Assembly (NCBI GenBank): GCA_014871385.1
Contig: CM026427.1
Coordinates: 14,640,930 to 14,704,929 of the forward strand
Direction of reading: 5' to 3'
Origin: Ceratodon purpureus
Lineage: Eukaryota > Streptophyta > Bryopsida > Pseudoditrichales > Ditrichaceae
DNA length: 64,000 nt
Translations under genes and position numbers: made by a program
Notes under the pieces: generated by a model
Databases searched by the model: none
Told to the model about the DNA's origin: nothing
Seen by the model: the letters and a program-made list of their open reading frames with translations, nothing else
Part shown: piece by piece, positions 1-30,774 of the stretch
Layout of the letters: every line of letters begins with the position of its first letter
Numbering within the stretch: the first letter of the stretch is position 1

Positions 1-80
1 CTCAGTCGCATCTAAAGATTGGTGCCTTACAGTCAGTTATTGGACCTTCAGCTATCTGACCTAACCTCCAATGTTTGCAG

Positions 81-1532
81 AATCACAGTGAAGAGGAGCT
101 CGCAGAGATGCCATCCTGCAACCTTGCTGAATCAATCCACAACCGGTGGAAGCAGCAGTCCGGAGATCGTGGCAGTGACTTGTATGTCGCAGCTGTGGAC
201 GACTTTGTAAGGGCCTTCATGCAATGCGTTGCCTACTTCCAGTTTTTGAAGGGGGAGCGTCCTGGGAAAGGTCCGTCAAAAGAGGAGCTCAAGCTCCGAC
301 GTGCACAGAGATCTGCAGCAAGGACAGGAAACCCGAAAGTCCTTCACGAAGCGATTATGAACATGCCGGGAGCAAACGAATGGTGCACCCGGGACACGCA
401 TCTTGAAGGGGAGGAGGTCTGTGTCTCTCTGAAACGCAAACCTGATGTTGCCTTCGGAGATGAACGAGAGTCTCATAGGCCAGACAAGATCAGCGTGTCC
501 AGACCTCGTGTCCAGACTAGAGCTGCACGCCGGGAAAGCGACTATGCTCCGACGGTGGTAATAGCAGACTCTCCTACAAGCAGCGAAGAGGACCAAGACG
601 ACCTTCAACCTGACCCTTCCCCACCTCCAGTCGGCTACCATCACGTCACTTCAGTTGAAGAAACCGCCTGCAACCCTTCCGAGTGGCACATTGCACGACT
701 TCCTAAGACATCCGCCAAGGCCTGCTTCGCCCAACATGCCGTGACAATGAAGAAATGCGTGGCTCGGATCGTGCAGCACGGGAAGAGCACTCCGGCGCCG
801 ACATACACTGGCCCCATGAAGAACTACAAGAAAGACAGAATAGAGACTCATCAGTTCTTTTTCTGCAATGACGACATTGACAGGTGCGTCAAGGGTAGCA
901 AACGGAAGTGGGTCCTATCGGTGCCAAAGGTACCTGAGGTGTGGCCTGTGAAGCTTGGGACAAAGTTGACGAAGAAAGAGATCCTCTCTCTAGAGAATGC
1001 TGGCTTTAGACTCCCGCAACAGAAGGAGATGTCACCAAGAAGACTCTTTCAAGACCAGGCAGCGGCAGTAGACTTCTCGGCCTACCCTACGCCGGCATAC
1101 CCGGACGAGTTCCCTACCCGGCGATCAGGAAAGCTCATCCGACGGAACAAGAAGGCCCCGTCGACCAAGCATAGCAATAATTGTGCCTCTGCCTTATCGT
1201 TGCACGCGAAGGTTAGCAAGTTGTGCATGCTGCCTGCCCCAGCCCTGGGATGCATCGTCACATTGGACTCTGGGAAGCTTCCAAAGGTACAGCAATATTA
1301 CTTGACCATATCGCAGTACCCTGCGTGCACTTGCCCGAATTTCAAGGAGATGGCAGTTACGGCACTTGGGAAGCGAGGTCAATGGGCTAATTGTAAGCAT
1401 CTGTATTACCTGTTCACTGTAGTTTGCGGTCTTGAATCAGAGTCGGATACATTCATCCATGCAGCTAGTTTTAGCTTCAACGAAGTGAAGCGAGCCCTAC
1501 AGAGCGGCCTTCTGAAATACTTGGAGACCTAG
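81..1532 (+). CDS. 3'-terminal exon of a SWIM zinc-finger protein, probably transposase-derived
   Basis: The reading frame is open from a splice-acceptor-like TTTGCAG (74-80) to the TAG at 1530-1532. An in-frame stop lies just upstream at 57-59, so this is read as the last exon (483 codons) of a gene that begins outside the window. Near its C-terminus it has a SWIM-type zinc site: Cys416-x-Cys418, then Cys438-x-His440 (exon numbering). SWIM domains bind DNA or protein and are typical of MULE and FAR1-like transposases. The start of the exon (NLAESIHNRW, then a hydrophobic helix around VDDFVRAF) resembles the segment after the catalytic core of MULE-type transposases. The middle is basic, Ser/Pro-rich and probably disordered. 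No catalytic core is visible here, so a domesticated or truncated transposase is an inference. The SWIM call is firm; the family is moderately supported. Confidence 0.65.
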   Translation, partial: NHSEEELAEMPSCNLAESIHNRWKQQSGDRGSDLYVAAVDDFVRAFMQCVAYFQFLKGERPGKGPSKEELKLRRAQRSAARTGNPKVLHEAIMNMPGANEWCTRDTHLEGEEVCVSLKRKPDVAFGDERESHRPDKISVSRPRVQTRAARRESDYAPTVVIADSPTSSEEDQDDLQPDPSPPPVGYHHVTSVEETACNPSEWHIARLPKTSAKACFAQHAVTMKKCVARIVQHGKSTPAPTYTGPMKNYKKDRIETHQFFFCNDDIDRCVKGSKRKWVLSVPKVPEVWPVKLGTKLTKKEILSLENAGFRLPQQKEMSPRRLFQDQAAAVDFSAYPTPAYPDEFPTRRSGKLIRRNKKAPSTKHSNNCASALSLHAKVSKLCMLPAPALGCIVTLDSGKLPKVQQYYLTISQYPACTCPNFKEMAVTALGKRGQWANCKHLYYLFTVVCGLESESDTFIHAASFSFNEVKRALQSGLLKYLET

Positions 1533-2244
1533 TGTTATGTGAGTTGGTGTTTGCACATGTGTAGCCTGTATTTATTTTAATTGTGAAGTAGTGAGACTAA
1601 AAGGGCCACTACCAAAAATTTGCAGTAGCACTGGATTCCATTTTGTCAAATTCGTGTAAGTCCCGCTCTGAATATACACAAACTCTGTAAAGAACTATTT
1701 ACCACTAAGCAATGTAAGGAATTATGTAATTCCCAATGAGGCTATGATTAGAACGTTTAGAATGGAGTCACGTAAGTGTGCTCGGACCCAAACCAACATT
1801 TTTCAGGATTTAGGGAGGGGCCACATAAGTGTGTTCGGGACCGAGCAAACGTTTTCCAGGGTTTAGGAGGGAGTCACGAAAGTGTGCTCGGGACCGAACA
1901 AACCTTTTGCAGTGTTTATGAGAGAGTCACGTAAGCGTTTGGGCATTCCCAATCCCTTTTCAGACTCCTAGAACGCAGAGGACTCTGTTCCAAAGGGTGG
2001 TATACGAGTGGCCCACCTTTGTCAGAATTTAATGAATAAGGTGAAAGCTTCAGACCGTATTAACCCCACCACTACATTTATGCATGACCATTGAGACTGT
2101 ACACCGTTTTGAATTCAAGGTCCTGTACAATAATTTATATCCTCCTCAGAACTGCTCTTTCTGTCCTTGATTGTTGTACGTGCGTATGTGTGTATGTTAT
2201 GTTCCATATCTATGTTCCAGTCACTTCTCAGATGCACACTGTAG
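1533..2244. other. Convergent intergenic region
   Basis: This stretch lies between the 3' ends of the SWIM exon (+) and the SPH gene (-). Apart from the 53-bp tandem repeat listed separately I see no coding potential or RNA gene. It should hold both polyadenylation regions. Confidence 0.6.
1765..1945. repeat. 53-bp tandem repeat, about 3.4 copies
   Basis: Successive units begin at 1765, 1818, 1871 and 1924, exactly 53 bp apart, each with a version of GAGTCACGTAAGTGTGCTCG followed by a GGGA-rich and then a TTT-rich half. Copies are roughly 80% alike by eye. No ORF is preserved through the units. Confidence 0.85.
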
Positions 2245-3309
2245 TCATAATTCGTTGTGTTCTAGTTTTTGTCGCTTGCTTGGATTTTCATCGTCCACAT
2301 CGGCTGTTGAGTGACGGTCCTCGACATCCACTACTGCCTGACGACGTCGAATCCAATCAAATTGTTTTACCCACTTAGGGCCGTTCTGCTGACAGGTTCT
2401 GGTATCCAGGAAAATACCACTGTCATTTGCTTTCCAAGCGCAATCAATACACAACATGGGCTGATCGAGGTCATCAGGTGGTATCCATAGAAACACGTCA
2501 TTGCGGGATTGCCTTGTTGCTATTAGAATGAAGTTGCATATCCATTTTGTAATAAAATGTGGATGTGTAGCTCGTCTTAAGATAACTCTTGTGGTACGTT
2601 CATTCTCAGATTCTCTCTGGAGACGGGATGGCAGTGTTCTAACTGTCGTAGCACCATTTACTGGCCCGTAAACCAGCATCAATTCGTGGTCGAGGTCATT
2701 AAGTATTGAAACAAAGTAGTTGCCAAGTCTATCAATCAATTCCCAAGTGTATGGATTTCTCTCAAACTGGCCCTTCTTCACAAAGTGCTTACAACCTCGA
2801 GGAGGACTGAATTGAGAGACGTATACTCCGTCGGCCTGAATTCTCCAACGACATTGAGGTTCCTCAGAATGCGGCCATTCATCACAGATTGGACAATCAT
2901 CGTCCGAGTATCCTGCCAACTTGTTCCGCTTGCTCAGCACTTTTGGATTTTCATAAACGCAGACAGGCTCAAGAATAAAAGATTCCACGCAATTCCAACT
3001 CCTGGTTTCGTACGTAAATCTGTAGAACAGATTGTTTCTAAACATTTCCAAATTCATACGTTGTTGAAGCGGAGAACCAAGAAGAGTTACCGAATTCGGA
3101 CTAAGATTTTTAGAGAAACTGTATGTCATTCTCACTAGTCCATTGGCGGCTTTCTTTTCGGCACAATTCACTATAAGTGGATGAGGAGATGCGTTTTGAA
3201 TCTGAAGGGGACTATGTGTATCTGGTCGCCAAGCATGTAGGCAATGAAAATCTAAGAACAGTAAAAAAATCAGAGCACGAAGTTGATTCTTAGAGACCTG
3301 GTTTTGCAT
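2245..3309 (-). CDS. Secreted-type protein with two tandem S1/SPH (self-incompatibility-like) domains
   Basis: This is a single-exon ORF of 354 residues with an ATG start at 3307-3309 and a TGA stop at 2245-2247. Residues 10-27 form a hydrophobic signal-like segment. Residues ~36-170 look like a plant self-incompatibility S1/SPH domain: an N-x-L/P strand start, a Phe-rich middle, a Cys-x2-Cys pair at 139/142, then CRWRIQADGVYV at 153-164. Residues ~197-322 repeat the pattern: ILNDLDHELML, then TKWICNF, then CIDCAWKANDSGIFL at 287-301. SPH proteins are usually single-domain, secreted, about 110-150 residues long, and act as cell-cell signals. The acidic tail contains a nuclear-signal-like PSKRQKLE at 343-350, which is odd for a secreted protein. 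The family call rests on spacing and Cys/Trp/Gly landmarks, not on a search. It could instead be an unrelated beta-sandwich protein. Confidence 0.55.
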   Translation of the reverse strand: MQNQVSKNQLRALIFLLFLDFHCLHAWRPDTHSPLQIQNASPHPLIVNCAEKKAANGLVRMTYSFSKNLSPNSVTLLGSPLQQRMNLEMFRNNLFYRFTYETRSWNCVESFILEPVCVYENPKVLSKRNKLAGYSDDDCPICDEWPHSEEPQCRWRIQADGVYVSQFSPPRGCKHFVKKGQFERNPYTWELIDRLGNYFVSILNDLDHELMLVYGPVNGATTVRTLPSRLQRESENERTTRVILRRATHPHFITKWICNFILIATRQSRNDVFLWIPPDDLDQPMLCIDCAWKANDSGIFLDTRTCQQNGPKWVKQFDWIRRRQAVVDVEDRHSTADVDDENPSKRQKLEHNEL

Positions 3310-4423
3310 ATTTACGAATGGCCGAGAACTATCACCATGTGCAAGAATGTTATTTTTTGATTCTGCCTGGAATTTGTAATTGAGGAATTACTGGAAGACA
3401 AATATTGTGTTCAAAAAGGATCACGATGTATTCAAGTGAAATTGAAGCAGTCATTCACACGGTTGAGTCTAAGCAAGAACTGATCAATAAATGAAGTTCG
3501 ATGTTTTGAATCGTCAAAGGCATTTGAGGAGGTGACCGGTTGAAAGGTTCTTGACATACGAAAGGTCACTTTAGCATGTTTAGAAAGACATAAATTCCCA
3601 ACTGTCATAAAAGAGTGATAGATTTTGTACTTCGGACCACTGTTTGCAAAATAGCACCAACCGAACTGTTCTTATGACAGCATTCCACGGATGTTGGCCT
3701 GTACTGTCCACTGATCCTAACACCAAGATTTCCACGGTCATAGATCTACGTCCTTCAGTCATTTCACTGAAATTGTCCACGGCCATAGGTCACATTCCGA
3801 ACTATATTTAGAATTTTCAAAAAGCAAAACAATGTTACTCCATAAAATACCGTAATGTTACCGCTCTAATTCACATTTTCATCAAAATTTCTGCAAAGTT
3901 ACCGCTCTCCGCTCTCCGCTCACCGCTCACCGCTCGCACTATAGCGTCGTCCGACTAGGGACTGCGCTTAGCTCTGGGAATTGCTTTCATTCTCGTGTCT
4001 TGTACGTATTATATTTCTCAGCGTAATATAGCAGTGCGCCCTTGAGACATTTCCTGTGGCTTCTCTACGTGAGAGCACTCATTCGCTTCCCCTGCTTGAG
4101 CGGGCGTAATCAATCGGGCGTAATCGATCCGCTGCCCTTGTTGTAGCAAAGTGTGAAATATCATAATCAGCGTCCGTGTCTGCCGATGAAAGAGCATTTT
4201 CTCTGGTGAAGCAGTCGGGTTGCAGCTTAGAATTCCGTTAACGACGGAGGCGTCTTGCTGCTGAGGCTTTTCCAAACTCATCGGCAACTCAACCATTTGG
4301 GCGTGGAAGTTCTGATAATTGCGCTGACGAACTGTGGTCACTGTGCAGATTTTGGAAGTTGCGGAGGTTGAGGAGGGAGCTTCTATCCACGCCGGGGCAT
4401 TAGTAATCCAGACGAAACCCACC
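3310..4423. other. Intergenic region upstream of the ParB-like gene
   Basis: The region holds two imperfect copies of CCACGGYCATAGRTC (3732 and 3777), the left 7-bp minisatellite, and a 14-bp direct tandem (CGGGCGTAATCAAT and CGGGCGTAATCGAT, 4101-4128) about 300 bp before the start codon. The tandem could be a regulatory site; that is inference. A minus-strand ORF at 4018-4431 shows no recognisable features and is not called. Confidence 0.5.
3902..3936 (+). repeat. Left 7-bp minisatellite (CCGCTCW)5
   Basis: Five head-to-tail heptamers: CCGCTCT twice, CCGCTCA twice, CCGCTCG once, followed by CACTATAGCG. The same heptamer array, also five units, occurs at 10121-10155 on the far side of the two-gene block, again followed by an ATAGC-containing stretch. 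Confidence 0.85.
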
Positions 4424-5946
4424 ATGAGCAAATCACCGCATAGGGCCGCCGGGGTCCATTCTCATGATAGACGGTCGAGCGAGGTAAGAGGAGGACGATC
4501 TCTCGCCTCAGGCGCTGCTTCTTCATGCTTCTTTCACTCTACTACATTCCTGAGCACTAAGATTGGTATGTTTTATTGCAGATGACGTATGTACCGGACA
4601 AGGCATGGGCCGGCGACCAACAAGGGGAAGGATATTCATCGGTAATGATACATTTCCCACCTGGGCACTTTGAATTAAACATGCTGCAATGGATCTTACG
4701 TGAGTTTGAGTGTATGTATAAAATGTTGTTTATACATTGACAGGGCCATGGATGATGTTGCAACTTGCTGGCCACCAGGTTAATTGCGATGTGGAGATGC
4801 TGAATTTTGAGGCACTAGAAACCGGCCCAGATAAGTTGATTACTGGTCGTCTAAAACATGACGAAGCGCTGGCGGTAATGGAAGAGACTCTGAGGAATAA
4901 TGTTAGAGGTAATAGCCATGTTGCTCTCATGCAGGCAATGGATACGCTAGGGCTAGAGTTTGATGTCCCTTTGTGTCGAATGATACCAATGACAGACGTA
5001 AGGTTGCCCATGAAAACCGACATTCAGAAACTGAAAGCAGAGTTTTCAAGAGGATATCAGCGGGCGTCCGCATGTTTTTACCTTGCAGTGAAGAGGTTTT
5101 CTATGAAGGAGGCATTCGTAACGCAGGTTGATGGGGAAAATTGGTCTCCTTTATGGCAAAAGGAAGATCGAGAATTTGAGGAACAATTGAAGAATGATCC
5201 TCGTCTGGGAAAGTTCTTTGATCGTTTCTTTTATGTATGGGATGGTAACCATGGGCATATTGCTTGGATGGATATGATAAATGCGCTTCACAGTACGGAC
5301 GCATCGTTCCATGTGCCTGGCCGATCGGTGGTTCTTAATGTCACTCCAGAGAATTGCAACATGCTTCTACATGCCATGACCGATTGGAACAAGTGAGTGT
5401 ATTATATTTTGTGCTCAAGATCAGTTTACTTCACAGCCTCGTTGTCTCAAAATTTGTGCAGAACATTAGTTTGACAAAACGCTCTATTGAATTTCAGGAT
5501 AAACCAGGTTGATCATGTTGCTCAACACTGGACACATGAGGTGAAGCGAGTCCAGCAACTTGGGTTGCTGGACTTTGATCAACTCAAAGGTCTTGTCAAT
5601 GAAGATGATCTTCAAGCTAGCATAGCTGAGCATGCCAGATTAAAGACCAAGAAGTGGTACCACCTCACTGTTCCAGCGTTCATCAATTTTCTATATGAGG
5701 TAAGACTTCTAACCTCATTAGCACCATACCAAAGTCATCAAACATCTTTCCACGAGACTAAATCTGTGTTATCCGTTTTTGAAGCGTGAGATCTCAGCTG
5801 CCCAAGAAGAGGCAATTAGGTGGTACAGAGACAGTCTGATAACTGGTACGGACAATGACAAGATGGGGAGTGCGGATGAGCTTGCGGCAATCGTATTGAA
5901 GGCTGTTGAGAAAAAGAAGACCCAACTTGATTCCCAGCTCGTTTGA
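4424..5946 (+). CDS. ParB/sulfiredoxin-like domain protein, five exons, 396 aa
   Basis: Exons by eye: 4424-4483, 4582-4699, 4744-5392, 5498-5699, 5785-5946. They sum to 1191 nt with no frame break, and every intron except the last has a good GTRAGT-type donor and YAG acceptor. The ATG at 4424 sits in a favourable context (CCCACCATGA). Residues ~140-156 (IPMTDVRLPMKTDIQKLK) match the first strand and helix of ParB-type folds. Residues ~222-234 (FYVWDGNHGHIAW) match the GxxRxxA box, but the usual Arg is Gly. In bacteria such domains bind CTP or cut DNA, and in phages they often travel with DNA methylases. Here the next gene downstream is methyltransferase-like, which supports the call. The linker between the two motifs is unusually long (~70 residues). 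The C-terminus is a charged helix. No search was possible; a different fold is conceivable. Confidence 0.55.
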
Positions 5947-6664
5947 TCTTTGGCAATTGCAAACCGAGCAAACGGATCGGGATTTCTGAAAGAGGTACGA
6001 AGCTCACATATTCATGGTTTTATTGTGCACTGCCTCAACTCCCGGAGGTTGCCTCGGATCCGAGGAGGGGACCAGGGGCCTTTTTCTTTGATGCAGTTTG
6101 TATGCTTTGGGCACTGGAACCGGCTAGCCGCATTGCTGCAGTGGCTGCGGCCTCCATGATGCCACTGCCTTTGGTTGCGAGCTAAGGGGCCTTGAGAGAT
6201 TTTTTTGTGCACTGCCTCCCCTCCCGGAGGTGGCCTCGGATCCGAGGAGGGGTCGGGGGGCCTTTTTCTCTGATGCAGTTTGTTTGCTTTGGGCACTGGA
6301 ACCGGCCAGCTGCATTGCTGCAATGGTTGCGGCCTCCATGATGCTGCTGCCCTTGGGTGCGAGCTGAGGGGCCTTCAGAGATTTTTTTGTGCAGTGCCTC
6401 CCCTCCCGGAGGTTGCCTTGGATCCGAGGAGGGGTCGGGGGGCCTTTTTATTTTATGCAATTTCTATGCTTTGGGCACTAGGTGGGTCGGGGTGCTTTTA
6501 TTTTGTTGCAAATTGTGGCTCCACGGCCCTACTTTGCTTATGTGCTTTGTTCCACGCTGCACCATATTTCCTTATTATTTCTTCTAATCCATGTAGAGTG
6601 CTTATTTAACTCACTGTTTATTTGATGGTTTTGGCACGTTATTCGGCATTTTGATGTATATCAA
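5947..6664. other. Spacer between the ParB-like and methyltransferase-like genes
   Basis: Almost all of it is the 182-bp tandem repeat (listed separately). The remaining AT-rich 140 bp before the ATG at 6665 probably carries the promoter or leader of the second gene. Confidence 0.6.
6015..6520. repeat. 182-bp GC-rich tandem repeat with a palindromic core, about 2.7 copies
   Basis: The anchor TTGTGCASTGCCTC recurs at exact 182-bp spacing (about 6023, 6205 and 6387). Each unit holds the 14-bp palindrome CCTCGGATCCGAGG (6052-6065, 6234-6247; one mismatch at 6416-6429) inside a larger stem of CTCC and GGAG runs. The third unit decays after about 100 bp. The units are GC-rich in contrast to their surroundings. 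Confidence 0.9.
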
Positions 6665-9293
6665 ATGAAATCGGAAATGACACCTGAGAAGGTTCACTTA
6701 ATTGCAACTGCTAAAGTATCTTCTAAGCATAAAGAAAGATGGTGGAATATGAGTAAGGAGAGCCACCAGGAGTATAACTTCCCACCACAGCCTGCTTCGG
6801 TCTCTCATCTTCAAGTCTGGATAGATCAGGCTGCTTTTTGGGCTGGGGTAAGCTGCAATCTTCTTCCTATTTCTTGTGAAATGATCTACTTAATTTTTGA
6901 TGTGATGATTTACCTTTAATACTTGTAATTAACTATGTTCATATTGTTTCAGCTCGAGGAAGAGGCAACTCCTAGGTTCGAGCAGATTGTGGAGGAAGAT
7001 GGTATTATTCTTAATACCGAGGGCTTGTCAACTCCTATTGATGAGATAGGAGCTTGGATTGCTTCCAATGGCATAACTCTCTGGGGGAAGGCCTTCACAG
7101 AGTTCTTCCCCAAATTAGGCACCTTTACAAAGAAGATGCCATTTCTTTCTCAAGTTGGTGCAGAGAATGCCATGAAGAGAGTTATCCTCAGGTATTTCTG
7201 GAGAGAGTTAGTAGTGAAGGGAGCTCTGGATAGGAAGGATGTTCCCGTGCGTTTCAAGAAGTGGATTGATGTTTCTAGTTGTGACTATATCTTCACTGAG
7301 TATCAGAGGAAGCATTTTGGTACTCCCCATCTATTGCAGTGTCCATGGTATCTTGAAATGAAGGATTCTGACAAATGTCCGGGGGATGAGAGAAACTTGA
7401 GAGCAACTTGTAACAAGACAATGCAGCAAGAAGTTGAGACTATTGGGCAGTTTGAAGAGGAGGCATCTGAGGTTGGAGATAAGGACAATTTAAGTGACAA
7501 GCAGAGGAAGAGGTTGGCAGAGAAGAAAGCCAGGGTGGAGGCACGGTTGAAGGAGAAAGAAGAGAAGAAGAAGGGGAAAGAGGAGGAGATCAGGATGAAG
7601 AAGAAGGTTGCTGCAAAGAATAAGGAGTATGCTAAGTTGGTTAAGAAGGAGGGGCCAGAGAAGCTTTTATCTCATGTGGGCATTTCTCCATCTGGAAGTA
7701 GTATGCCCTCTTCTGGTACTCCTTCTAATTCCCAGGTGAATCTTTTTGCTCCCTCTCTGCCTTCCTAGACTGTGTACACAATCCCTTGCACTCAAGCGGA
7801 TGAGGCAGAGAGTGAAGTGGAAATTTATAATGATAGCCCTTCTGGTATTCTGGATTTGTTCAACTCTTGTGCTGAGGGGGACAAGCCAGATATTTGGCTC
7901 CGTATCAAGTCATGGATTAAGGATCATCAGGGTACGAAGACTAGATATTCTGGGGGTATTGAGGCTAATGATGTAGTAGACCTCATCATTTTTGATGTAC
8001 CTGAGGACTTACATTTGCCAGGTCTTAGTCTTTCTGGTGAAATTCCTAGCTGGAACCGACACCCTAAGGTAAAATCAGAGAGTGGGAGGATGGAGTCTGA
8101 GTGGATCAAACACCAATTTGAGTTTGCCATGGACTTTCTTCAAGATGATGGAGCTCTTATTGTCTTCTACCATGATTCCAAGTTCATATCCAATGAGCTT
8201 ATCTCTTGGGCAGAATGGGCCAATTTTCAAGAGGAAGCCAAGTGGTTTGCTATCAATTGCCTTCCTCTGACAGTACCTGATCATCCTTCTCTTAAGCGAT
8301 CTATGCATCCTCCCCGTCAACACAAGTGCTTATGGTGAAGTGCTTTGTTAGAATGGAGAATCCCACGGAGCAGGTACCAAGGTCAAAGTTTGTTTTCTAT
8401 GAGCGTCTTGAACTTGCTTCTCAGGGCATGAAGCTGTCTTCAGATGGACATATCAATAACAAGATTACAAGTGAGACTCTTACTGTCCAATTGGAGACTG
8501 GTGTGCCATTTCGTGGTGCAAGGGAGAAGACCACCAATCTTCTAATGACACTCATTGATCTTTGTACCGTCGAGGATGATATAGTGATGGACCTCACTAC
8601 ATCTACAGGTAATTTTTTCTCCCTTCACTATTTTATTTATTTATTAGTTCAATATTTCTTGTAATTCATTCTAAGTCACTATTGAATTTTAGGCGCTTCG
8701 ATTCAAGCTTCAAAGAATCTTCAACGTCATGTTGTTGCCTTTGAATATGACACCCTTTTGTACAAGGAGGTGCTAGTTCCTCTTATGCCACAATCTGAGG
8801 AAGTTCAGTCTGCCGAAGTTGTCGTTTCATTCCCAACAAAGAAGCGTCTCCTCGAGGATGCAGATGAGCTTGAGAAGAAGACTGCACCCAAGCGTTCTTG
8901 TAAGTAAGTCTACACTATCCCCCTTTTATGCTTCATCGATTTCCAATGTATTGTCATCACTAAACTCTAATCTATTTGTTTCTTTGTAGATGGCGGCAGG
9001 AAACGGTGAAGAAATCTAGAGACAAGAAGTATGAAAGCACAATCTCACACCATCTGAGTAAGATTAGAAGTCCTATTAGACCCCTTGCACTTCCTTACTA
9101 TGTTGAGAATGTTGCACATGCGATGGCAGAAGCTCCTTCCCCACCCCCGCACGCTCGCACTCGTAGTATTTGCAGAGATGCAGAGGTGTATTTGGATGTT
9201 TCGGCAGAAGTTGATGCCATGACCTTGGATAGTTCTAGTGATAGTGAGCAAGGGTGGATTGAAGTTTCTAGTGATGAGGAGATATTATTTTGA
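6665..9293 (+). CDS. Degenerate, circularly permuted N4/N6 amino-methyltransferase-like protein (~770 aa), possibly interrupted
   Basis: Proposed exons: 6665-6847, 6953-7735, 7769-8325, 8326-8608 (frame change), 8693-8903, 8990-9293. The N-terminal third is unrecognised; a Lys/Glu coiled coil follows (about 7490-7670). DLIIFDVPEDL at about 7980-8012 occupies the place of the DPPY motif IV and is followed by an FAMDFLQDDGALIVFY strand-helix. FRGAREKTTNLL (8507-8542) resembles motif X. VMDLTTSTG then GASIQASKNLQRHVVAFEYD, across the intron at 8608/8693, resembles motif I of PF01555-type methylases (usual pattern DxFxGxG, then R, then E). The order IV-X-I is the permuted class seen in beta-type enzymes. 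Catalytic residues are replaced (DVPE; TTSTG), so activity is doubtful. An in-frame TAG at 7766-7768 requires a 33-nt intron, and the frame shifts near 8326. The acidic tail contains WIEVSSDEE, a SUMO-interaction-like motif. Confidence 0.55.
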
Positions 9294-10120
9294 GTTTACA
9301 ATTCCTGTGTTTTCCTTTATTGTATTTGCCTTATTTGCACCATTGGATTTATAAAGCCTATCTAAGTCCTCATGTCTTCTATTATGTCTTATGAGCATAA
9401 TGTATACATATTGCTAGCACAAGTCTCTTCTCTAACCTTTTTTTTTTAAATGTTTTCTATGTAACCCTCACAGAGATCAAGGTTTTGCAAAACTCTTTTC
9501 AGACTTATTTTCCTTCCCCACTACACAAATACCCCCCCGTAGAATCCAAATTCGAAGTCGGAATCGGAAAATAATAATTATTAAGGAAGATATTAACGCT
9601 CTGTTATTATATTCTGCCAATAAAAACAGTCATCTATCAATTCGGATGAAAACTGTGAAAATATTGGATGAGAACATCCAACCGATGGTCGTGGCCTTCG
9701 GCTTTACGATCGATGCCTTCGGCTTTACCGTTTCAAATGTTTATGCGTGGGCTGACTTCCTGGCGTCGCTCTCACTTCGACTAAGGGGCTCCATTGTTTC
9801 CTTACCAAATCAATGGTTTCATTCATTTTTTGCACATTATATCTTTCGGAAATTCATTTCCAATTTCTTTTTTTGTTTTTCTTTATTTGATTTATATATT
9901 TTTATTCTTATTTCATCTAGGGTTTTTTTTTTGATGATTTGGAATATTTATAATAAAAATTATTAAAATCTTAAGTATATTACTACAGCGACTAATCTAG
10001 AAGCCATTATCTTTGGGAATTACCCCAAATCACCTACCACGGTCATAGGTCCCCTACTTGCCATGTAATACAAAAACATCTCAAAATATTCAAATAAATA
10101 GTCAAAAATTCATAAATTTA
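9294..10120. other. Region downstream of the methyltransferase-like gene
   Basis: AT-rich. A duplicated GCCTTCGGCTTTAC lies at about 9694-9730, and a copy of CCACGGTCATAGGTC (10037-10051) matches the two copies left of the ParB-like gene. No gene is seen; the 106-codon ORF at 9646 ends in Phe-rich low complexity and is not called. Confidence 0.5.
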
Positions 10121-10155
10121 GTGCTCACCGCTCACCGCTCACTGCTCACCACTCA
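10121..10155 (+). repeat. Right 7-bp minisatellite (CCGCTCA)5
   Basis: Five heptamers, GTGCTCA, CCGCTCA, CCGCTCA, CTGCTCA and CCACTCA, then CGAGATAGC. Same unit, same orientation and same copy number as the array at 3902-3936. Confidence 0.85.
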
Positions 10156-10185
10156 CGAGATAGCATTTCTGGCAAAACTAATAGT

Positions 10186-10960
10186 AATAGTCTTTTGAGA
10201 ACTCAAGGTGACTTTAAGGATAATTCTATTAAGAAATTTGCAAAGAAAAAAGCCTACGTTGACAAACTTACAAAATAGGAAAGAAAATAAAAATAAACCA
10301 AAATCAAATTTAAAATAAATTTAAAATGAACTTAAAATTTAAAATATGAAAAAATAAAAAAATAAAAAACAAAGATACTTCCATTTGGTACTACTCACTC
10401 ACTCCCTTACTCATTGTATGGAATTCCAATGTTGCTATCTTCACCCTTGAATGAATATTTGTTTTTGAAAAAATAAGGTTCATTTTCTAAAAAGTATAAT
10501 TTTACAATTCTTGTTCTTTTAAAAAATTAAAAATACCTTGAATGGATTAAAAATTGACAAATATGACCTAAAATAATTTTTCATATTTTTGTTTTTTCAT
10601 CCTAAAAACATTCTATTTTTTTATTTTTTTAATTGTTTTTCATAATTATTTATGAACGAACATGCTATCAACCTATAGTAGTCGAGTATCCACTAAAACA
10701 TGAAAACAAAAAGTGTACTGCAATGCAAAAAGACGGCAAGTTGAAGAGTTAAAAAAAAAAAAAACTAATTGAGCATCACAAACAAAGTTCGAGGTGAGGA
10801 GCACCAGCTTGAAAATAAGAATGAATGCCAAAGCCAACGCTATTCTTATACTTCTAAAGGATTAGAGGTCTGAAGGGTTGGAGGGCACTAAAGGCAAGTG
10901 AGTGTTGTATGACATATATAAATAATTAATTAATTTTTTTATTCAAGATGGCAACACCAA
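10186..10960. repeat. Dispersed repeat family R1, copy 1
   Basis: It shares long blocks with 12728-13412: AACTCAAGGTGACTTTAAGG and GCCTACGTTGACAAAC at the left, GGTACTACTCACTCACTCC and CTTCACCCTTGAATGAATAT in the middle, and ATTTATGAACGAACATG then AAGTTCGAGGTG to the right. Poly-A and AT-rich runs separate the blocks. Its class is unknown. Confidence 0.75.
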
Positions 10961-12727
10961 GGAATACAAATCCAATAACACAAGAGGTCCAAAGATTTCA
11001 GTTGATAAATCATTAGTTTGGAGAGTGGTTATTGAAAAACACATGAGGTGTCAAAGTCATAGATGTGATGAGCAAGCACTGCAAGACGTAGTTTCTAATT
11101 GACCTTGATTGATTGCAATAAATGATGATAGTTATAGATCTAAGCGATTGGATTGCGAACGAGCAAATAGACCTCAATAAAGTGTGGGAATCCGTGAACA
11201 CTTTAAAAAATCTACTTGTCACCTTTGATCAAGTAAATCAACAATCATATCAATGGGGTCTATGGCTTGATCAAGTAACCTTGACGTTGGAGCCATTGGA
11301 ACAACAAATTGAAGTCTTGAAGAAAGATATCTCGTTTGTTAAGGTCGTTGCTGAGGGAGGGTTTAAAGAAAGGTTGTCCTCCTTCATAGAGGGTGTTTAG
11401 AACTTGTTTGATCCTACAACACTAGATGAAATTGAAGAAGATAGAAGCGACCGAAAGGAAATTAAAAGGACAACAAGAATCAATACAGAAGCTAAAAAGT
11501 CAAGCAGAGACAATCGCATGATGACTTTAATCTCAAGCTTGTCAACGTGAGGGGAGTTTTGAAGCAAGTCAAATAAGAATTGAGCGCAGGTTTGTCAATC
11601 AAGAAATTGAATAAATAATTGATAACATGTTTTATAGAGTTTTTCATTTTTTCATTTTTTCTCATAGGATGAGTTGAAGCCGGAAATTAGATTTCAAATT
11701 AGCAGCACGTTTTTTTTCCTTATAACAGCTCTGCAAGCTGTAAATGTAATAATTGTTTTTGGACCTAGGTCATCTTTACAAGCCTATCCAGGGCGCCCGG
11801 GGCAGCGATACTTCCCGAATATTGTTGCTAGGGATGTGTAAATATCCCCCTCCTTTGGCAAAACGTTTGAATGGACATCATTCAGTAATTGTAAGCACAT
11901 GTAATGTCAATCATTTATATTTTAGTGCTAAATTGCAGGAGATGCTAGATTGTTGTTTTTTGTTTAGGTTACCATCATTGTACATAACCTTGCAATTAGA
12001 CAATATTGTCAAATTTACAGGACAAGTTCATTTCATGTCACTTGTTCATATAGCAACTAATTCTAATGAAAAAATGGATTTCCTCTAATCTACATATATG
12101 CAGCATGTGCCAAAAGTCAATATGGAGATTCTCTTTGTAGAGGTGTCCAACGATAAGCAACGCTTGATAGACAAGTGCTTACATATAAATTGGAGTTTAG
12201 TTTTTCACAATTATAACAAAGGCCTCACAATAAAAAAACAAAAGCCCCACATTGATAAATCCACTAAAACACCACTAAAAAGAAAATACAACTCACATTA
12301 CAACCTTAAAAAAAAAAAACCGTACATTCAAATCCACTAAAAAGAAAATTGAAAAAAAACTATTGTTCCATGCCACATGTTCACTCACTCCTTCCACTCT
12401 ACTAAACTCTTTTCTACTTCAAAAAAAATAACAAAATTCATGGTATCTTTTAAAAAATCTAGCTTACTTTACAAATGGTTCTATTCACAAATCTATAAAG
12501 CCAATTCCTACATTTACACATCCTCCCAAAAAATAAATTAAAAACGAAATTCCATTTAATACTACTTACTCACTCACTCCTCACATTCCTTCTATTGCAC
12601 TTTGGTTTGAAGAATATAAGTTGGGGTTAGAATTCCACACAAATCTCATTCTCTATTCAACTAACTTCACTCTTTTTGTTATACACAGCTTTATACAATT
12701 AATTTAGAGAATTAAGCAAAATTCATG
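10961..12727. other. AT-rich intergenic DNA with a decayed coiled-coil ORF
   Basis: Positions 11122-11400 encode 92 residues with heptad-like Leu/Gln/Glu spacing. The surrounding sequence has similar composition but stops in every frame, so a relic of a gag-like or structural protein is possible. A second, shorter partial copy of the R1 repeat is visible at about 12440-12620. Nothing else can be supported. Confidence 0.35.
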
Positions 12728-13412
12728 GTAATAGTCTTTTGAAAACTCAAGGTGACTTTAAGGGCAATTCTATTAACAAATCTGCAAAGAAAAAAGCCTA
12801 CGTTGACAAACCTACCAAAAAAAAAAAAAAAAAAAAAAAAAAACCAAAGTAAAATTTAAAATAAAATTAAAATATGAAAAAAAATTAAAAAAAATACTTT
12901 CATTTGGTACTACTCACTCACTCCTTTGCTCATTGTATAAAATTCTAATGTTGCTATCTTCACCCTTGAATGAATATTGATTTTTTTGGTTAAAACAAGG
13001 TTCATCTTCCATAATTTATAATTTTTCAATTTTTGTTTTTCAAAATAAACTGAAATAACCTTAAATGGTTAAAAAATAGACATATACCACATAAATATTT
13101 TTTTATATTTTTTTTTCTCCATCCTAAATATTTTTATTTATTTTTATTTTTATTTTTAGAATTATTTATGAACAAACATGTTGTCAACCTACGGTAGTCA
13201 AGTATTTGCTCAAACAAGAAAAATAAAAACTCTTCTACAATGGAAATGAGCAGCGAGTTGAAGAGTTACAAAAAGCTAATGGAGCATCACTTTGACACAT
13301 TGAAGACAAAGTTCGAGGTGATAATCGCCAGCTTAGAGACAAGAGTGAACGCCGAAGTCGATGCTATATTTATACTCATAAAGGGCTAGAAGGCTGAAGG
13401 ACTAGAGGGATG
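12728..13412. repeat. Dispersed repeat family R1, copy 2
   Basis: Collinear with copy 1 at 10186-10960 over about 650 bp. A 23-nt poly-A tract interrupts it near 12818-12842. The right part encodes short Glu/Lys-rich stretches, as in copy 1, but no intact ORF. Confidence 0.75.
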
Positions 13413-14134
13413 TAAGTGTTGTTTCATTCATTTTCGGGTATACTAGAATGCTCACAATGCTCTAATTCATCATCTTGGTGTCATGTTTGGCACACAGACG
13501 CTGTAGATAGGGCGGTTAGGCCAAGAGACTGGCCTGAGTTGCGGCTAATATACGCTCACATGGGTATTGTCCTTGGGATCCATCTCTCTTCCTATTTGCA
13601 TTAGAATTGATGTTTGTGTTTGGTCTTTCTAAACACATAGTTCGGCAAGATCTGTATGGTTAGTATTGCTATTGGTGTCCACGGAAGGTTGGGAAGGTCA
13701 CGATGCTTGCTAGGTTTTAAACCTTCCAGAAGCAACAGCTATCAGTTGTTCTTCGCGCACACGAAATCTTCACTAGGCACAACTTCTCTCCTAGGCTTCA
13801 TTCTCACACGTACTACAAGGAAATGCTGACCATAACTCGAATGTGTAATGAATTTGCTTCTATCAAGGTCTTACATAGAGGTGAAGGGTTTTCAATGGCA
13901 CTATGACGAAGCATCCTCTCAACTTTCTTAGTATACATCAATTTTAATTACATTGTAGTAAGTTTACAATTGTCTTTATTTACTTGCACCCCAAATGTTA
14001 TAAACAATTTGTATGCACACTTCGTTTTAACGAGTGTTGAGGCAAAAAGTTAAGGCAAATAACGCACTGTGCTATACTTGAAATATCCCTACTTGCTACT
14101 TGGATATTTCAGTTCTAGTTGATTGAAATTCCAA
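13413..14134. other. Unassigned intergenic DNA
   Basis: Moderate base composition compared with the flanking AT-rich repeats. Short ORFs only, with no recognisable domain, RNA gene or repeat. Confidence 0.4.
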
Positions 14135-14600
14135 TGATGCTACCATTTGTTGATAGCAGGTTCCATCACTTTAACAAACATTTTTCTTTTTTTAAAACAA
14201 TAAGGTTTGTCTCCCAAAAACTAATCTTCCAAATTTCATTTAAAAAAAATAAATAAAAAAAAAAAAAAAAAAAAAAAAAACTAAGACCAGATTTAAATAG
14301 ATTAAAAATTAAGCAAATATCACATAAAATAATTTCTTACATTTTTGTTTTTCCTTCCTTAAAATTTCCAATTTTTATTTTTATTTTTAAAATTATTTAT
14401 AAACGAACCTGGTATCAATGTACGGTAGTCAAGTATATCCTAAAACATGAATAACAAAAACCCTGCTGCAGAATTAAACTAAATATGGTATCTTTTAAAA
14501 AATCATAGTGACTTTAAGAATAACCCTATTCACAAACCCACTAAAAGAAACAAATTTTAAATAGAAAATAAAAAATAAAAAATAAAATTCCATTTGATAT
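14135..14600. repeat. Dispersed repeat family R1, diverged partial copy 3
   Basis: It keeps the AATTATTTATAAACGAACC, CGGTAGTCAAGTAT and GGTATCTTTTAAAAAATC blocks seen in the other two copies but lacks the left part. A long poly-A tract lies at 14243-14280. Confidence 0.6.
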
Positions 14601-14816
14601 CACTCACTGAATATAAAAACAAAAATAAAAACCAAAAAAAAAATTTAAAAAAAAATAACGAAAATATAACATAAGTATAAAAAAAATACAAAAGATATAA
14701 AATAAAAAAATATAAATAGAATAAAAAATATTTAAAATATTTAAAAATACTAAATCATAAAATTCCATTCGTCCTCACTCCCATATTAGGGTTAGGGTTC
14801 CACCCGAATTCATGGA

Positions 14817-14884
14817 ATGTAAGTTATCCAGGGTGGTCCACCTGTGCATTCCATCTCATTTGGACCACCCTGGATAACTTACAT
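14817..14884. repeat. Perfect 24-bp inverted repeat with a 20-nt loop
   Basis: The left arm 14817-14840 ends in CCAGGGTGGTCCA and the right arm 14861-14884 begins TGGACCACCCTGG; they are exact reverse complements over 24 bp. The loop is 14841-14860. It may be a tiny foldback MITE or a hairpin RNA precursor. No target duplication is evident. Confidence 0.9.
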
Positions 14885-19627
<4,743 letters not shown>

Positions 19628-21176: not shown

Positions 21177-22454
21177 TCAAAATGGGTCCAATAGCAGATG
21201 TGTATCTGTACGTTTCTCTGCTTGTGAGATCAGGTGCTTCACCCACATTGAGTGAACATCTGATAAATCATAATCTGCTTGGTGAGCTGGATCATCTTGA
21301 CTGCTGAGCCAAGAACGAAAAATCTCCTCCTGTTCAGCATAAGGTAAGCCCATGATAAATCTGAATAACAATGTCGAACTAAGTGGAGTTTCAGGTTTAA
21401 AGTTATCAGCTGTCAAAATCCAATTCCATCGACGAAACAAAGCAAGCCGCTCCGCCGTTTTCAAGAACAACTGCCCGCTCAAAACGTCCTGAAAGATTGT
21501 GCATATTATCATTTTAGCCCAGCTCCGCTCAATAGTCTTTCGTCTGCCAACCAAGCATTGAAACTTCGACTGCAGAAGTGGCGCAATATCTCCATCCCGC
21601 AAAACAATCTCCACCAACTTCTGAGCAGAGCGAGCCCCTCGCAATGTACTGAAAAGCCAACAGACTTTTCCAGTTTGCTGAAGAAGCATGGCTTCTTCTT
21701 GACAACCATTCTTGATTGAATTCAGAGTATTTTTCAAGTCACCTGTAACAAGGTCAAGGGCAGCCGGTTGAAGCTTGCGAATTTTGCCAGGTCCGGAAGC
21801 ACCCACAACAGCGTTAAACGCTACTGTAAAGACCTCTTGGCTTTTTCTCCTTGACTTCAGAGTGTTAGAGCTAGCTCCCTCCAAGGAGCGGCTCAGCATG
21901 CTATACAACAAACCCAAAAGTTTTCTCTGCCTTTCCTCTCCATTCGAGTCCACCTGTAAACGCCGACACAAGTCGCTCGTGGACTCGGTGGTATAAAGCT
22001 GCCCAGAAGCGTAAAAGCTACGAACCTGCTCTTCTTCCTCCTCAGACCACGGTACTGATGCAAGATACCGAACGCCAATATCCATAACTTCATCATACTG
22101 TATCTGTGATGCAACCTTGAGAAGCTGGATGCAATCATCCACGCTCACAATCTCTGCGCAGGGAGAATACATGCGAGTGAAGCACTCCCGGTAGAATCGC
22201 ACCTCCGTGTGGGCTACAAGATAAAACTCTCCCTGCATCTGCTCAGACATCCACCTCTCGCTCATGCACGCCTCAAAGTACCTGCTGCATTCTCGAAGCT
22301 TGGATGACTCCGCACGTATCTGCACTCGATCAGGCTCTTGATCACTCAGTCTGCGACGCTTCCTGGCGACGTCTCCCTGGTCATGATCCATGGTGGACGT
22401 GGGCCGCGTCAAGATGATGGTCACATCATCCCACTTGAACCGAGCCTTCTCCAT
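21177..22454 (-). CDS. BTB/POZ domain protein, At3g05675-like (BTB1)
   Basis: Single exon, 425 residues, with an ATG at 22452-22454; a further in-frame TTG upstream is not used. The BTB fold spans residues ~10-131: strand DDVTIILT, then LRECSRYFEACMSERW at 53-68, then CIQLLKVASQIQYD at 108-121. A helical BACK-like C-terminal half follows. A basic insert (RKRRRLSDQE, 31-40) sits inside the BTB domain and looks like a nuclear signal. Arabidopsis relatives are single-exon-like BTB proteins of about 440-550 residues thought to be CUL3 adaptors; that role is inferred here. The leader has a splice-acceptor-like ATTGCAG just before the start codon, so a 5'UTR intron is possible. It shares this domain plan with BTB2, BTB3 and BTB4. 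Confidence 0.9.
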   Translation of the reverse strand: MEKARFKWDDVTIILTRPTSTMDHDQGDVARKRRRLSDQEPDRVQIRAESSKLRECSRYFEACMSERWMSEQMQGEFYLVAHTEVRFYRECFTRMYSPCAEIVSVDDCIQLLKVASQIQYDEVMDIGVRYLASVPWSEEEEEQVRSFYASGQLYTTESTSDLCRRLQVDSNGEERQRKLLGLLYSMLSRSLEGASSNTLKSRRKSQEVFTVAFNAVVGASGPGKIRKLQPAALDLVTGDLKNTLNSIKNGCQEEAMLLQQTGKVCWLFSTLRGARSAQKLVEIVLRDGDIAPLLQSKFQCLVGRRKTIERSWAKMIICTIFQDVLSGQLFLKTAERLALFRRWNWILTADNFKPETPLSSTLLFRFIMGLPYAEQEEIFRSWLSSQDDPAHQADYDLSDVHSMWVKHLISQAEKRTDTHLLLDPF

Positions 22455-23344
22455 CTTGCCCTGCAATGATCACTGCTCTCTAAATCGCAGACTAAGATGA
22501 TGAAACCAAGCAAATTGCTAGTACAGTGATCTACAGTCTGCAATTACAATTAAGATGTACAGACTACAGACTACCGACTACAGATGTGCAGACAATGTGA
22601 GTGAACCTTAAACAATCTTTACTTGTTTCCGCACTGGAATCTGCATCTCATGAGTTAGCAGCATGGACTCTCATTGTGCCTCGGAGGTTGCTTTCATCAA
22701 GTTCGAGAGGTTGATGAAGGAAACATGGGCGATAGTTTTAATCGGGAAGCTGCATGGTTGTAAAGGAACATAATTAGCTTTTGAAGGAACAGAACTTAGA
22801 AGATGATGGGAATAGTTTTTATTTATTTTGATTTTGTAGTTTATTTATTTTTATTTTTGTGTTTTGCTTCACTATTTGAGTTTACAAATGGATTTTCTGA
22901 GTCGGTTGTCACCGAGTTTGTGAACTTTAAATAGTATCAACGACCTAGCACTTGGGTTTGGAGGAGCTCGGTTGGAAGTAATGTTTTAAAATAATATTTC
23001 AAAAGTTAAAAAAAATCAGCCGTCATAGACTAAAATTTGCTAAAATTTAATGTCTCACTATATGTTCATAAATTATTTTTTATTTTTTATTTTTTTGATA
23101 TTGTAAATATGGAAAAAAAAAAAAAAAATGTTTTTTTGCAATTTGTTTATTTTCAGTCTCTTTAAGACTATTTTAAACATATCTTTTTGTAAAAATTAAA
23201 ACTAAAAAATTAAAATTTTAGAAGATGAACCTTAGTTTCCAAAAACAAAATAAAAATATTTTTTCAAAAGTGGATGAACCTACTATCTTTTATAGTAATA
23301 GAAACAGACAATCAATCAATGACCATATTTGTTGTATTGAGACT
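22455..23344. other. Upstream region of BTB1 and AT-rich DNA
   Basis: The first 250 bp should contain the BTB1 promoter, with repeated TACAGACTAC-type motifs at 22555-22590. From 22790 the sequence becomes low-complexity T/A-rich. No gene is seen. Confidence 0.4.
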
Positions 23345-25796: not shown

Positions 25797-26535
25797 GGGG
25801 AGAAGTACAATAAAGTGGACCACAATAGTGCTTAGCTATTTGCCAGTTTCAGGCCTTTTGCAAAAATTGCACAAAACTGATGGAAAAATGAAATTGAAGT
25901 CAAATTGTTTTGCTAATATGGATTCTCAACTTGTTTTTCTACAACATGGAAAAGTTTCGTGCAAAGTAGACACTTCAAAGTTATTGTATGAAGGCTTTAA
26001 ATCCAAGCAAAGTGAATGGTGTCATTTATAAAAGTGACTATAAAAAAATAAAAAATTATCAAAAAATCACTTTTGATGAAGTGGTGCCCTCTATATGTTT
26101 AAGAGGTATTCTAAAATAGTCAATTTATATACTCATTGATTGGTTTAGGGTTCCAAAAGTACCGTAAGGATGTTTTTTTAAGAGGATCACTTCCGCGGTA
26201 CTTTTAGTGCATTTTTTTTCACCGAATATTGTTTTTTAAATCGAAAAAAACATCCTCTAAAGACAATAGAGGGCATCAAATGAAGAAATTAAGACTTTGG
26301 AAAAGTTCATTTTCATAATTTAGAACTAGTGGTCAAATTTAGTTTCAATTGATGATATTCTTTCATGAAGATGCGTGTAAGATACCTTATGACTCCCTAG
26401 AAAGTGACTAAAATGCTCAAAAACTAAACCAAAATGCTCAAAATCAGCTTTGAGCTTTAAAAAACAGCACACTTCATATTCACTTTTTAGTGATCACATT
26501 TTGCACTTTGTGGTCCACTTTACTGTGCTCTCCCC
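25797..26535. mobile_element. TIR element family T1, copy A (739 bp)
   Basis: The left end GGGGAGAAGTACAATAAAGT and the right end ACTTTACTGTGCTCTCCCC are near-complementary termini, with similarity extending about 33 bp into the element. The interior has no intact ORF. Copy D is its closest relative, in reverse orientation. Target duplication is unclear. Confidence 0.85.
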
Positions 26536-26937
26536 ATGATCTCAAAAATTTCCAAAAAATTCTGTACAACTTCAACACATTAAACTTTTTTGGCTCATAT
26601 TCCCTATATTTGCCTAATGTTTATGTATTTTTATCACACCCTATATGTCCATTTAATCAATAGACATGCAACTTCAATTCTGTCAAGTTTTTATAAACAA
26701 ATTTACCTGAAATCAAATAATTCAAGTTTCAACTATTTTCACATACACATCTTTATCAAACCAAATAACTATTATTACATGTTTTGAACCACATATGTAC
26801 ACTACATATCTTATTGCTCTAGTTGTCATATTTATATCAAACTAGTTAGCTATATTCACCTACACATCGGTATCAAACCAAAAAACCATTGTCACCTAAT
26901 TTGCATCACAGTTTGTATAATTTGTATGAATGAATGA

Positions 26938-27671
26938 GGGAGAGAGTACAATAAAGTGTACCACAAAGTGCAACATGTGATCACTAGGAAGTGAATTTGA
27001 AGTGTGTTGTATTTTATTGCTCAAATCTAATTTTGAGCATTTTGGTGTAGTTTTTGAGCATTTTAGTCACTTTTTAAGGTGTCACAAGGTATCTTACAGG
27101 CATCTCCATAAAAAAACATCTTCAATTGAAACTTAATTTGACCACTAGTACTAAATCATGAATTGTATCACTAGTACTTAATTGGGGCCCTCTATTGTCT
27201 TTAGAGGATGTTTTTTCCAATTTAAAAAACAATGTTCCGTGAAAAAAACCTCACAAAAAGTTTCGTCGAAAACAGCTCCCCGAAAACGTCCCAACAAAAC
27301 TTTTCGGCTATACAAACTTTCAAAGGAATTGCTTCGGCCCATTTTTGAAACCGCAATTCACAATCGGAGGGTACAGCGCAGTCAAAAGAGATTTCTAAGT
27401 TTCTAACATTTGTGCACTCTTTTTTGTCCACTTCTTCAAATGATAGCATTCACTTTGGATCACTTGCCGTGACTCGTAAGGCTTCGTAAAAGGCACACAT
27501 CGGTTCCAAAATTTCGTAGACTCAAGATGACCGAGTCTATTTTCTATACCCAAAGCCCCTTCCAACATATCATCAAATTATATGTCACTTTTCTTAGTGA
27601 ACTTTACAACAATGGCTGAAATTGGCAATGAGCTAAGCACTTTTATGGTACACTTTATTGTGCTTCCCCCC
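26938..27671. mobile_element. TIR element family T1, copy B (734 bp)
   Basis: Begins GGGAGAGAGTACAATAAAGT and ends ACTTTATTGTGCTTCCCCC. Its interior is the reverse complement of copy C over most of its length, so B and C form one subfamily. ORFs at 27182 and 27222 are not conserved as proteins. Confidence 0.85.
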
Positions 27672-28919
27672 ATGAATATCATAGTTAATATTCTATTTAA
27701 GTTTAGAGCATTACAAAATTGTATGAATTTTTTTTAATAAAAAATAGCATTTAATACTTGTCAAATATTTTAAATTTTTAGAGCTACAAATATGTTTCAC
27801 AAAAAAATAAAATCTATGTATATTTTACTTATGTGATATTACTCTTGAGTCTTGAAACCTTGTTGCATTACTTCATATTGATGTGTAGATATTAATATGT
27901 TTTATCTTCAAAAAATGCCATATTCAATACACTCGTCAATCCTTATTATAATTTATATTGGCTGTGCAAATAGAGAGATTTCAGTTCATTTTCTCTCTTT
28001 ATTTGATTAGTGTGACGGCCAATCTAAACAAGATTGGTCAATTTTATAAAGATGGCCATAAAATCTAATACAAGGTTTCCCAGAGGATTTGAGAAATGTA
28101 AACAATTTAATACAAACCTTAAATTATGTCAATACGGTGACATTGCTCCTTGTTTGATCACTTGCACAGTCCAATATAAGTATAAACCCCATGATCTGTC
28201 TCCTTAAACGTGCAACAAGCTTAAGCATATGGCCCATGGGGCGTCAGAACCCGTCTGCTCTTCATAATCGACTCAGCGGCCCGATGGGTTCTGTAAGAAA
28301 ATGAATTACATCACAACTAGAACTTCAAAGTTAATAAATCTTGTTTCAATACCTCAATGCACTCAGAATAATATGCGGTAGGCATTTGCAGCAAACGTCA
28401 CTACTCTCAAACAACCATCTATTTAACACTGGATGAACGAACCAAAAGAATTTAAGATACACAATTGCTGCTTGGGATGATTCAAACTCTTGTGTACTTG
28501 GCTGATACAGGACGGTCTTAGTAAACTCACCCCTGGGCGAAGCTCTGCTGCAGCCTTCTTCACGAGTGCCTCCGTTAATTTGATCTGATAGTGTCAACAT
28601 GAAGAATCACAGTAACTTCACTGGATAATCTCTTACAAATTACCACTTGTATCTTGTCAAGACGTGGGGCAGAATTAAACACAAATTTGCAAAACTCTTG
28701 CCAGCTTAAGAGTCAAGACTTCTATGAGCCACTGTATTACTCTGTCATTTTAAAGGTCAAATAATGCCTTTCGACTTCCAGCATCAGTAGATGGAGATGA
28801 CTCAACAACTAGTAGAGAGTCTTCTCCCACAGAAGGAAAGGTGTCACCTTACCACAGATGCGCTGCAGAGCGGAAGGGGGGCTGCGGAGCTCCGGGAGGC
28901 GCTTGGCGCTCCAGACACC
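27672..28919. other. AT-rich intergenic DNA 3' of BTB2
   Basis: No domain is recognisable. A minus-strand ORF of 84 codons at 28346-28600 has better composition than its surroundings and might be an exon fragment, but nothing supports a function. A GC-rich patch lies at 28860-28920. Confidence 0.35.
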
Positions 28920-29178
28920 CCGTTTAAAGCAGAAAAGACCACACTGAAAACAAATTGAAGGGCAACATAAATATTTTTATTTAAGAAACAGAAATATTTT
29001 GATTTAACATGGAAGCTTAGAGCTGAACATATAATTTATACTATCATTATACTGCTATAATTAGATTACCAGACTAGAGCTGAATCTATAATCAACTCCT
29101 ATCAACCTCCACTACCATCCACAGCCCTCAACCTGCAGCTCCATCTGCGGGATCAAACTCTGAACTAGTGCTGGTTGC

Positions 29179-30549: not shown

Positions 30550-30774
30550 CGTCTTCTCACTGCTTGCTCCTTCTCACTGCTTGCTCCTCCGCACAAGTGA
30601 ATATCGACACCAACTGATCAGAACACACAATCATGCAGGTGCTGCTTTGTGTATATATCAGGCTGGGCTAGGCTTGTTTTCAGAAGGTGGGCCTCACACT
30701 CCGATGGCAACGTCATGGAGAGCGCTCACTGTTACTCGGAGATCCATGTATCAAAGCTCAGGCTGAAGGAGGAT

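Follow-up and report, generated by a model that had tools for sequence, protein, structure and literature searches.

The giant transposon Sola1-1_Ec32 of Ectocarpus carries an accessory protein of 1104 amino acids (aa), ParB-like and DNA methylase at once, and proteins of the same kind are cited for green and red algae too, after Iyer 2011 and Petroll 2025 (PMC12477816). In Marchantia, the N4-cytosine methylases MpDN4MT1a/b, of bacterial origin, are reported to be active and sperm-specific; in bdelloid rotifers, a bacterial-type amino-methylase has been recruited, and N4-methylcytosine (4mC) activity is reported for it (PMC8566409 and PMC8885841). A ParB-methylase with nicking activity is described from Bacillus cereus (PMC5512222). 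Among the papers listed in the literature covered, mostly outside subscription journals, no land-plant ParB-methylase pair turned up; the broad idea is in print for algae. Here, these systems are compared with two genes of the moss Ceratodon purpureus, indicated as gene 1 and gene 2, at positions 4424-9293 of a stretch of 64,000 nucleotides (nt), the whole of which is referred to as the window (contig CM026427.1, positions 14,640,930 to 14,704,929 of the forward strand). A preliminary description had presented them as a ParB-like gene next to a permuted DNA-methylase-like gene. The best reading of the sequence is that of a real, but degenerate, bacterial-type methylase (gene 2) in a plant nuclear genome, adjoining an intact gene 1 to which no family could be assigned.

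The two genes are adjoining and intron-bearing, both on the + strand, with 718 bp between them, as had been described; the peptides quoted at that stage are all found on the + strand, in the order and span given for them. The main features are:

4424..5946, + strand: gene 1, predicted to encode 396 aa; exons 4424-4483, 4582-4699, 4744-5392, 5498-5699 and 5785-5946.
about 6665..9293, + strand: gene 2, a degenerate gene of permuted amino-DNA-methyltransferase origin; good signals mark the introns 6848-6952, 8609-8692 and 8904-8989.
7979..8005, + strand: DLIIFDVPE, in gene 2, the equivalent of the DPPY catalytic motif; it falls in the D-x-P-Y column in HMMER and MAFFT, within the PADLOC match.
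8515..8751, + strand: motif I region of gene 2, GAREKTTNLL ... VMDLTTSTG, ASIQASKNLQRHVVAFEYD; on the C-terminal side, spanning intron 8609-8692.

The three longest open reading frames (ORFs) of 4424-9293 measure 279, 224 and 189 codons. When 300 dinucleotide shuffles were examined, the third-longest ORF never exceeded 144 codons, and by this measure the long ORFs of the region are beyond chance, although the longest reached 277 in one shuffle. As a predicted model, gene 1 is an intact spliced gene: its introns (98, 44, 105 and 85 nt, the second being just 44 nt long) are all GT-AG, and the five exons join to one stop-free frame.

Gene 2 is, by its profile matches, clearly derived from a permuted amino-DNA-methyltransferase of the PF01555 kind, bacterial or phage in type. 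The PADLOC profile MTase_II (PDLC03371) matches it with E 5.9e-8, residues 68-300 of the 350-aa query aligning to positions 28-242 of 260, and all of the 15 PADLOC families reported are methyltransferases. In Pfam, PF01555 is found over profile positions 30-212 of 221 with E 0.0019 and 18.6 bits, below the curated cut-off of 26.7, and PrmA, another class I methyltransferase, matches the joined gene with E 0.025. NCBIfam reports CcrM (E 9.4e-4), with a ribosomal L11 methyltransferase model next (E 0.094), and among PHROGs the best of four matching methyltransferase families has E 0.0047. Seven phage methylases, three of them selected for their match to gene 2, were also combined into a profile: gene 2 scores 28.3 bits against it, none of 2000 shuffles gets that far (maximum 7.3; 1217 reported), and reversing the sequence gives -2.0. 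The hhalign probability is 58, compared with 1.6 or less in 40 shuffles.

With the 103-aa piece containing motif I, tblastn at E <= 10 found matches in 34 phage records, the lowest E being 4e-3; 18 of the best 20 are annotated as methylase, the others being one "ORF13" and one unannotated record. Against plasmids, 23 records were found (best E 0.03), and 19 of the best 20 are annotated as methyltransferase, one being unannotated. No match was obtained in phages with the same piece reversed. Among solved structures, the single match is DpnA, with E 1.4. The methylase-like nature of gene 2, as originally proposed, is thus borne out by several profile libraries, in agreement with the shuffled and reversed controls. 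For the N-terminal part of gene 2 no accepted family was found.

The motifs follow the permuted order, motif IV before motif I. The catalytic pattern (D/N/S)-x-P-(Y/F/W) is not preserved: DVPE keeps the D and the P, while the aromatic residue is replaced by E, and the stretch alone adds only 0.7 bits to the HMMER profile match. The G-x-G of motif I, which binds S-adenosylmethionine (SAM), is not preserved either, TTSTG retaining the second G only. In the seven phage methylases the DPPY site reads DIPY in two cases and DLPY in one, and motif I reads DMTMGSG in one; the Val of DVPE, like the leading Thr of TTSTG, falls, therefore, within natural variation. The real losses, as far as the alignment indicates, are two: the aromatic residue, now Glu, and, in motif I, the first Gly. 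Of the changes in key residues listed in the preliminary description, these two stand, while Val and the first Thr do not count as such. Losing the aromatic residue and the first Gly should abolish or strongly reduce catalysis; given the changes in DVPE and TTSTG, the product of gene 2 is probably not an active methylase.

Read straight, the coding frame of gene 2 is interrupted in two places:

7766..7768, + strand: in-frame TAG, to be read as a nonsense mutation or as the last bases of an intron; candidate intron starts at 7607, 7640, 7676 and 7736.
8273..8358, + strand: frame-change zone, the change lying between 8296 and 8338; the span is that of a weak 86-nt candidate intron.

The description of gene 2 as intron-bearing holds for the three well-signalled introns (105, 84 and 86 nt), but the TAG and the frame change had gone unmentioned. 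As modelled, gene 2 needs further, weaker candidate introns to give one open frame. Four introns ending at 7768 were considered (33, 93, 129 and 162 nt); the pyrimidine tract which precedes this position scores 14/15, above the 9-12 seen in all seven introns that were accepted. Several candidates span the frame change: for 8273-8358 the donor scores 5/9 and the tract 7/15, where accepted introns have 6-7 and 9-12. The PADLOC MTase_II match has E 5.9e-8 when the frame change is read as X, and 4.6e-8 when 8273-8358 is removed: the methylase profile fits both readings alike, and cannot decide between them. An intact gene, a pseudogene or an assembly error are all possible.

Gene 2 might, according to the first of these options, be an intact gene with two more introns, whose product, a non-catalytic DNA-binding derivative of a methylase, is retained for some function. 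Candidate introns of ordinary size are available at both places (93-162 nt for those ending at 7768, and 8273-8358), removing 8273-8358 leaves the match to the methylase profile as good as before, and a codon-position bias in guanine and cytosine is seen on both sides; the signals of 8273-8358 fall short, however, of those in the seven introns that were accepted, and this explanation is considered unlikely.

The preferred reading, to which about an even chance is assigned, is that gene 2 is the nuclear descendant of a permuted methylase of bacterial or phage type, degenerate and mobile-element-borne, lying beside an intact gene 1. A PF01555-kind methylase would have been brought in by a mobile element, the DNA of which would have been marked by the active ancestor. 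Gene 2 has gained introns and lost the catalytic aromatic residue and one glycine of the SAM motif, and would have been degenerating ever since its arrival; most likely it no longer methylates, and the present copy may, besides, be broken. The two genes may have been partners, and gene 2 is perhaps former transposon cargo. For the cargo of a eukaryotic element, an idea already put forward in the preliminary description, a published parallel exists in algae, but no element ends are found here in 1-16500.

A number of observations weigh against this reading. When gene 2 is cut into its separate frames, no methylase family is found in Pfam, the joined sequence being needed, and its first half alone finds none in PADLOC. 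For the 103-aa C-terminal piece, PrmA (E 0.002) is narrowly ahead of PF01555 (E 0.0027) in Pfam, and two unrelated families come after them (E 0.04 and 0.16). In Sola1-1_Ec32 (PMC12477816), both domains are in one protein, within a defined transposon, while two gene models, without element ends, are present here. No transposon ends were detected in 1-16500, where exact words of at least 12 nt and pairs of at least 60 nt were searched, so that imperfect short ones escape; the left side of the element may lie beyond the window. Perfectly matching inverted repeats do occur in the same region, five pairs with arms of 12-13 nt, but none is convincing as a terminal repeat. No transposase was found by profile search. 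No relatives were found for gene 1 or for the tail of gene 2 in viral and genome contigs, nor for the N-terminal part of gene 2 in viral contigs, by searches able to detect close relatives only.

Arrays of the GCTCACC type, at 3901-3935 and 10123-10156, were considered as element ends, and were judged to be low-complexity sequence. Upstream of gene 1, near the window edge, the following frame is found:

60..1532, + strand: ORF with a C-x-C...C-x-H (SWIM-like) ending; no Pfam match.

This ending resembles the SWIM zinc finger known from certain transposases, and the ORF is possibly part of a transposase which begins outside the window; in viral contigs no relatives of it were found, close ones only being detectable.

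An accidental arrangement has also to be weighed, in which a pseudogene, gene 2, happens to lie beside a lineage-specific gene 1 that is unrelated to it. A repeat is found between the two genes:

6018..6563, no strand assigned: tandem repeat, 182-nt unit present three times; similarity to copy 1 is 90% for copy 2 and 62% for copy 3.

Read straight, gene 2 does contain a stop and a frame change, and no linked relatives emerged from the contig searches, within their reach of close relatives. Yet the genes lie on the same strand at a distance of 718 bp, methylases with a partner recur in mobile elements (PMC12704722), and the searches for relatives did not reach plants. Chance juxtaposition is, all considered, rather improbable.

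The identity of gene 1 rests, in the preliminary description, on one pair of motifs:

4977..5390, + strand: claimed ParB box, IPMTDVRL and DGNHGHIAW, in exon 3 of gene 1; named from the sequence, negative in ParB profile tests.

No ParB family matches gene 1 at E <= 10 in Pfam, PHROGs, NCBIfam or PADLOC (exon 3 only for PHROGs and NCBIfam), nor do shorter pieces of it find any in the family libraries; in particular, PF02195 (ParB_N) and its relatives give no profile match. The phage ParB Dewdrop gp2, used as positive control, matches PF02195 with E 9.3e-10. The box GxxR/GxHR is not present, DGNHG lacking the conserved Arg. Two ParB profiles were built, each from 13 sequences: the first includes 12 phage sequences and E. 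coli YbdM, the second draws on phages and on archaeal viruses, and three of its members carry a methylase annotation; four sequences are common to both. Gene 1 scores 0.2 bits against the first, a value reached by 150 out of 2000 shuffles (1293 reported), and 0.1 bits against the second, reached by 183 out of 2000 (1090 reported). A score requiring three ParB blocks in order, with blocks derived from the first set, is -3.5 for gene 1, and 102 out of 400 shuffles are as good; among 93 frames, the 13 building sequences score 79-122, and the best of the other 80 scores 4.9.

Alignment of profiles leads to similar results. By hhalign, residues 224-393 of gene 1 align to the ParB profile with probability 0.5 and score 9.4, and one of 40 shuffles scores higher; against the other ParB set the probability is 0.1. 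The claimed box, which begins at residue 226, is placed at the start of the profile and not in its middle: the register does not agree with the box as claimed. In a free MAFFT alignment, DGNH is not placed over the GxxR box. No ParB signal was obtained by tblastn against phages and plasmids, nor against solved structures, where chains from PDB were found at E 0.29 or worse. For exon 3, single-sequence AlphaFold2 gave a mean predicted local distance difference test (pLDDT) score of 34, too low for use. Other weak matches of gene 1 were judged to be due to chance: PHROG 34640, with no assigned function (E 0.36), TIGR01880, an amidohydrolase (E 0.029), Utp13 (E 0.06) and PH_3 (E 0.11). The motifs taken as a ParB box are thus no better than those of shuffled sequence, and the change from Arg to Gly, which presupposes such a box, loses its support with it.

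The ParB identity of gene 1 was set aside as unproven, not as disproved, libraries, profiles, shuffles and hhalign giving no signal. Gene 1 could still be a highly diverged protein of the ParB/sulfiredoxin type, and the pair would then correspond to the algal-transposon accessory protein, divided over two genes. DGNH and the upstream IPxxxV stretch are in the proper order, and gene 1 adjoins a real methylase relative. In phages, fusion of a ParB fold with a PF01555 methylase is frequent (PMC12704722), and a precedent in algal transposons is described (PMC12477816). A ParB-type N-terminus is carried by three phage proteins annotated as methylase, from Streptococcus phage Javan128, Verrucomicrobia phage P8625 and Faecalibacterium phage Epona. 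Against this stand the lack of any ParB family in the four libraries, the absence of the conserved Arg, the proportion of shuffles as good as gene 1 (150/2000, 183/2000 and 102/400) and the hhalign probabilities of 0.5 and 0.1. A distant tie to ParB is doubtful, although conceivable, because one diverged sequence was tested against prokaryotic profiles; the split-protein explanation is doubtful to the same degree. Least probable, and very unlikely indeed, is the complete picture of a split ParB-like/methylase-like pair of mobile-element descent: catalytic residues would be lost from both proteins, gene 2 would be intact once spliced, and the pair would serve as a DNA- or nucleotide-binding module.

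The rest of the window was also inspected. At gathering scores, Rfam gives no match. Within the window, the two genes find only themselves, with the exception of exon 1 of gene 2, which matches 47048-47161 with E 0.051. Other features are:

2245-3387, - strand: frame of 380 codons, with a weak match, in two stretches, to the plant self-incompatibility S1 family (PF05938, E 0.0053, below cut-off).
10172-10885 and 12716-13409: direct repeat of about 700 nt, 76% identity, downstream of gene 2.
14813-14888: imperfect palindrome, about 76 nt, 83%.
15540-15611: minisatellite, 16-nt unit TACCCACCTCCCCACC repeated 4.5 times, 100% matches.
21177-22469, 29179-30573, 42598-43971 and 46224-47576, all - strand: related frames of 430, 464, 457 and 450 codons.
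25840-41490: interlinked repeats, both direct and inverted, with arms up to 527 nt, 79-98% complementary; perhaps nested mobile elements.
52220-57574, + strand: copia retrotransposon with gag, integrase and reverse transcriptase; a stop at 54037-54039 interrupts the frame.
60811-61269, - strand: frame of 152 codons with a RING finger (PF13920, E 1.6e-8).

The four related frames share the DNA repeats D6 and D10, and the two that were tested have no accepted Pfam domain; a resemblance to plant BTB/POZ proteins is tentatively suggested. The copia element is probably a recent insertion, since a direct repeat (150 nt shown) is found at both of its ends with 99% identity. The plant character of the sequence is read from the style of the introns, from this element and from the weak S1-like match.

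When gene 2 is compared with PF01555 and PADLOC MTase_II, that is with methylases of the DpnA and CcrM type, it is alike in having D-x-P first and D-x-x-x-S-x-G last, and in the alignment of most of the domain. It differs in the Glu which takes the place of the catalytic aromatic residue, in the Ser which takes that of the first Gly of motif I, in the introns, and in an N-terminal part without accepted family; the gene is, moreover, possibly broken. The methylases of Javan128, P8625 and Epona combine the two activities which had been proposed for the gene pair but, unlike the pair, feature a clear ParB box and a DPPY motif in one polypeptide. With the accessory proteins of algal transposons, the likeness lies in a methylase-type gene which a eukaryote carries and which may have a DNA-binding partner. 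MpDN4MT1a/b are, like gene 2, methylases of bacterial type from a bryophyte, but are reported to be active and sperm-specific. The present copy of gene 2 is to be taken as a lead, not as proof. A relative from a land plant, its active motifs degenerate, would add to the series which includes Marchantia, the bdelloid rotifers and the algal transposons, and would open to testing the idea that bacterial-type methylases enter plant nuclei by way of mobile elements.

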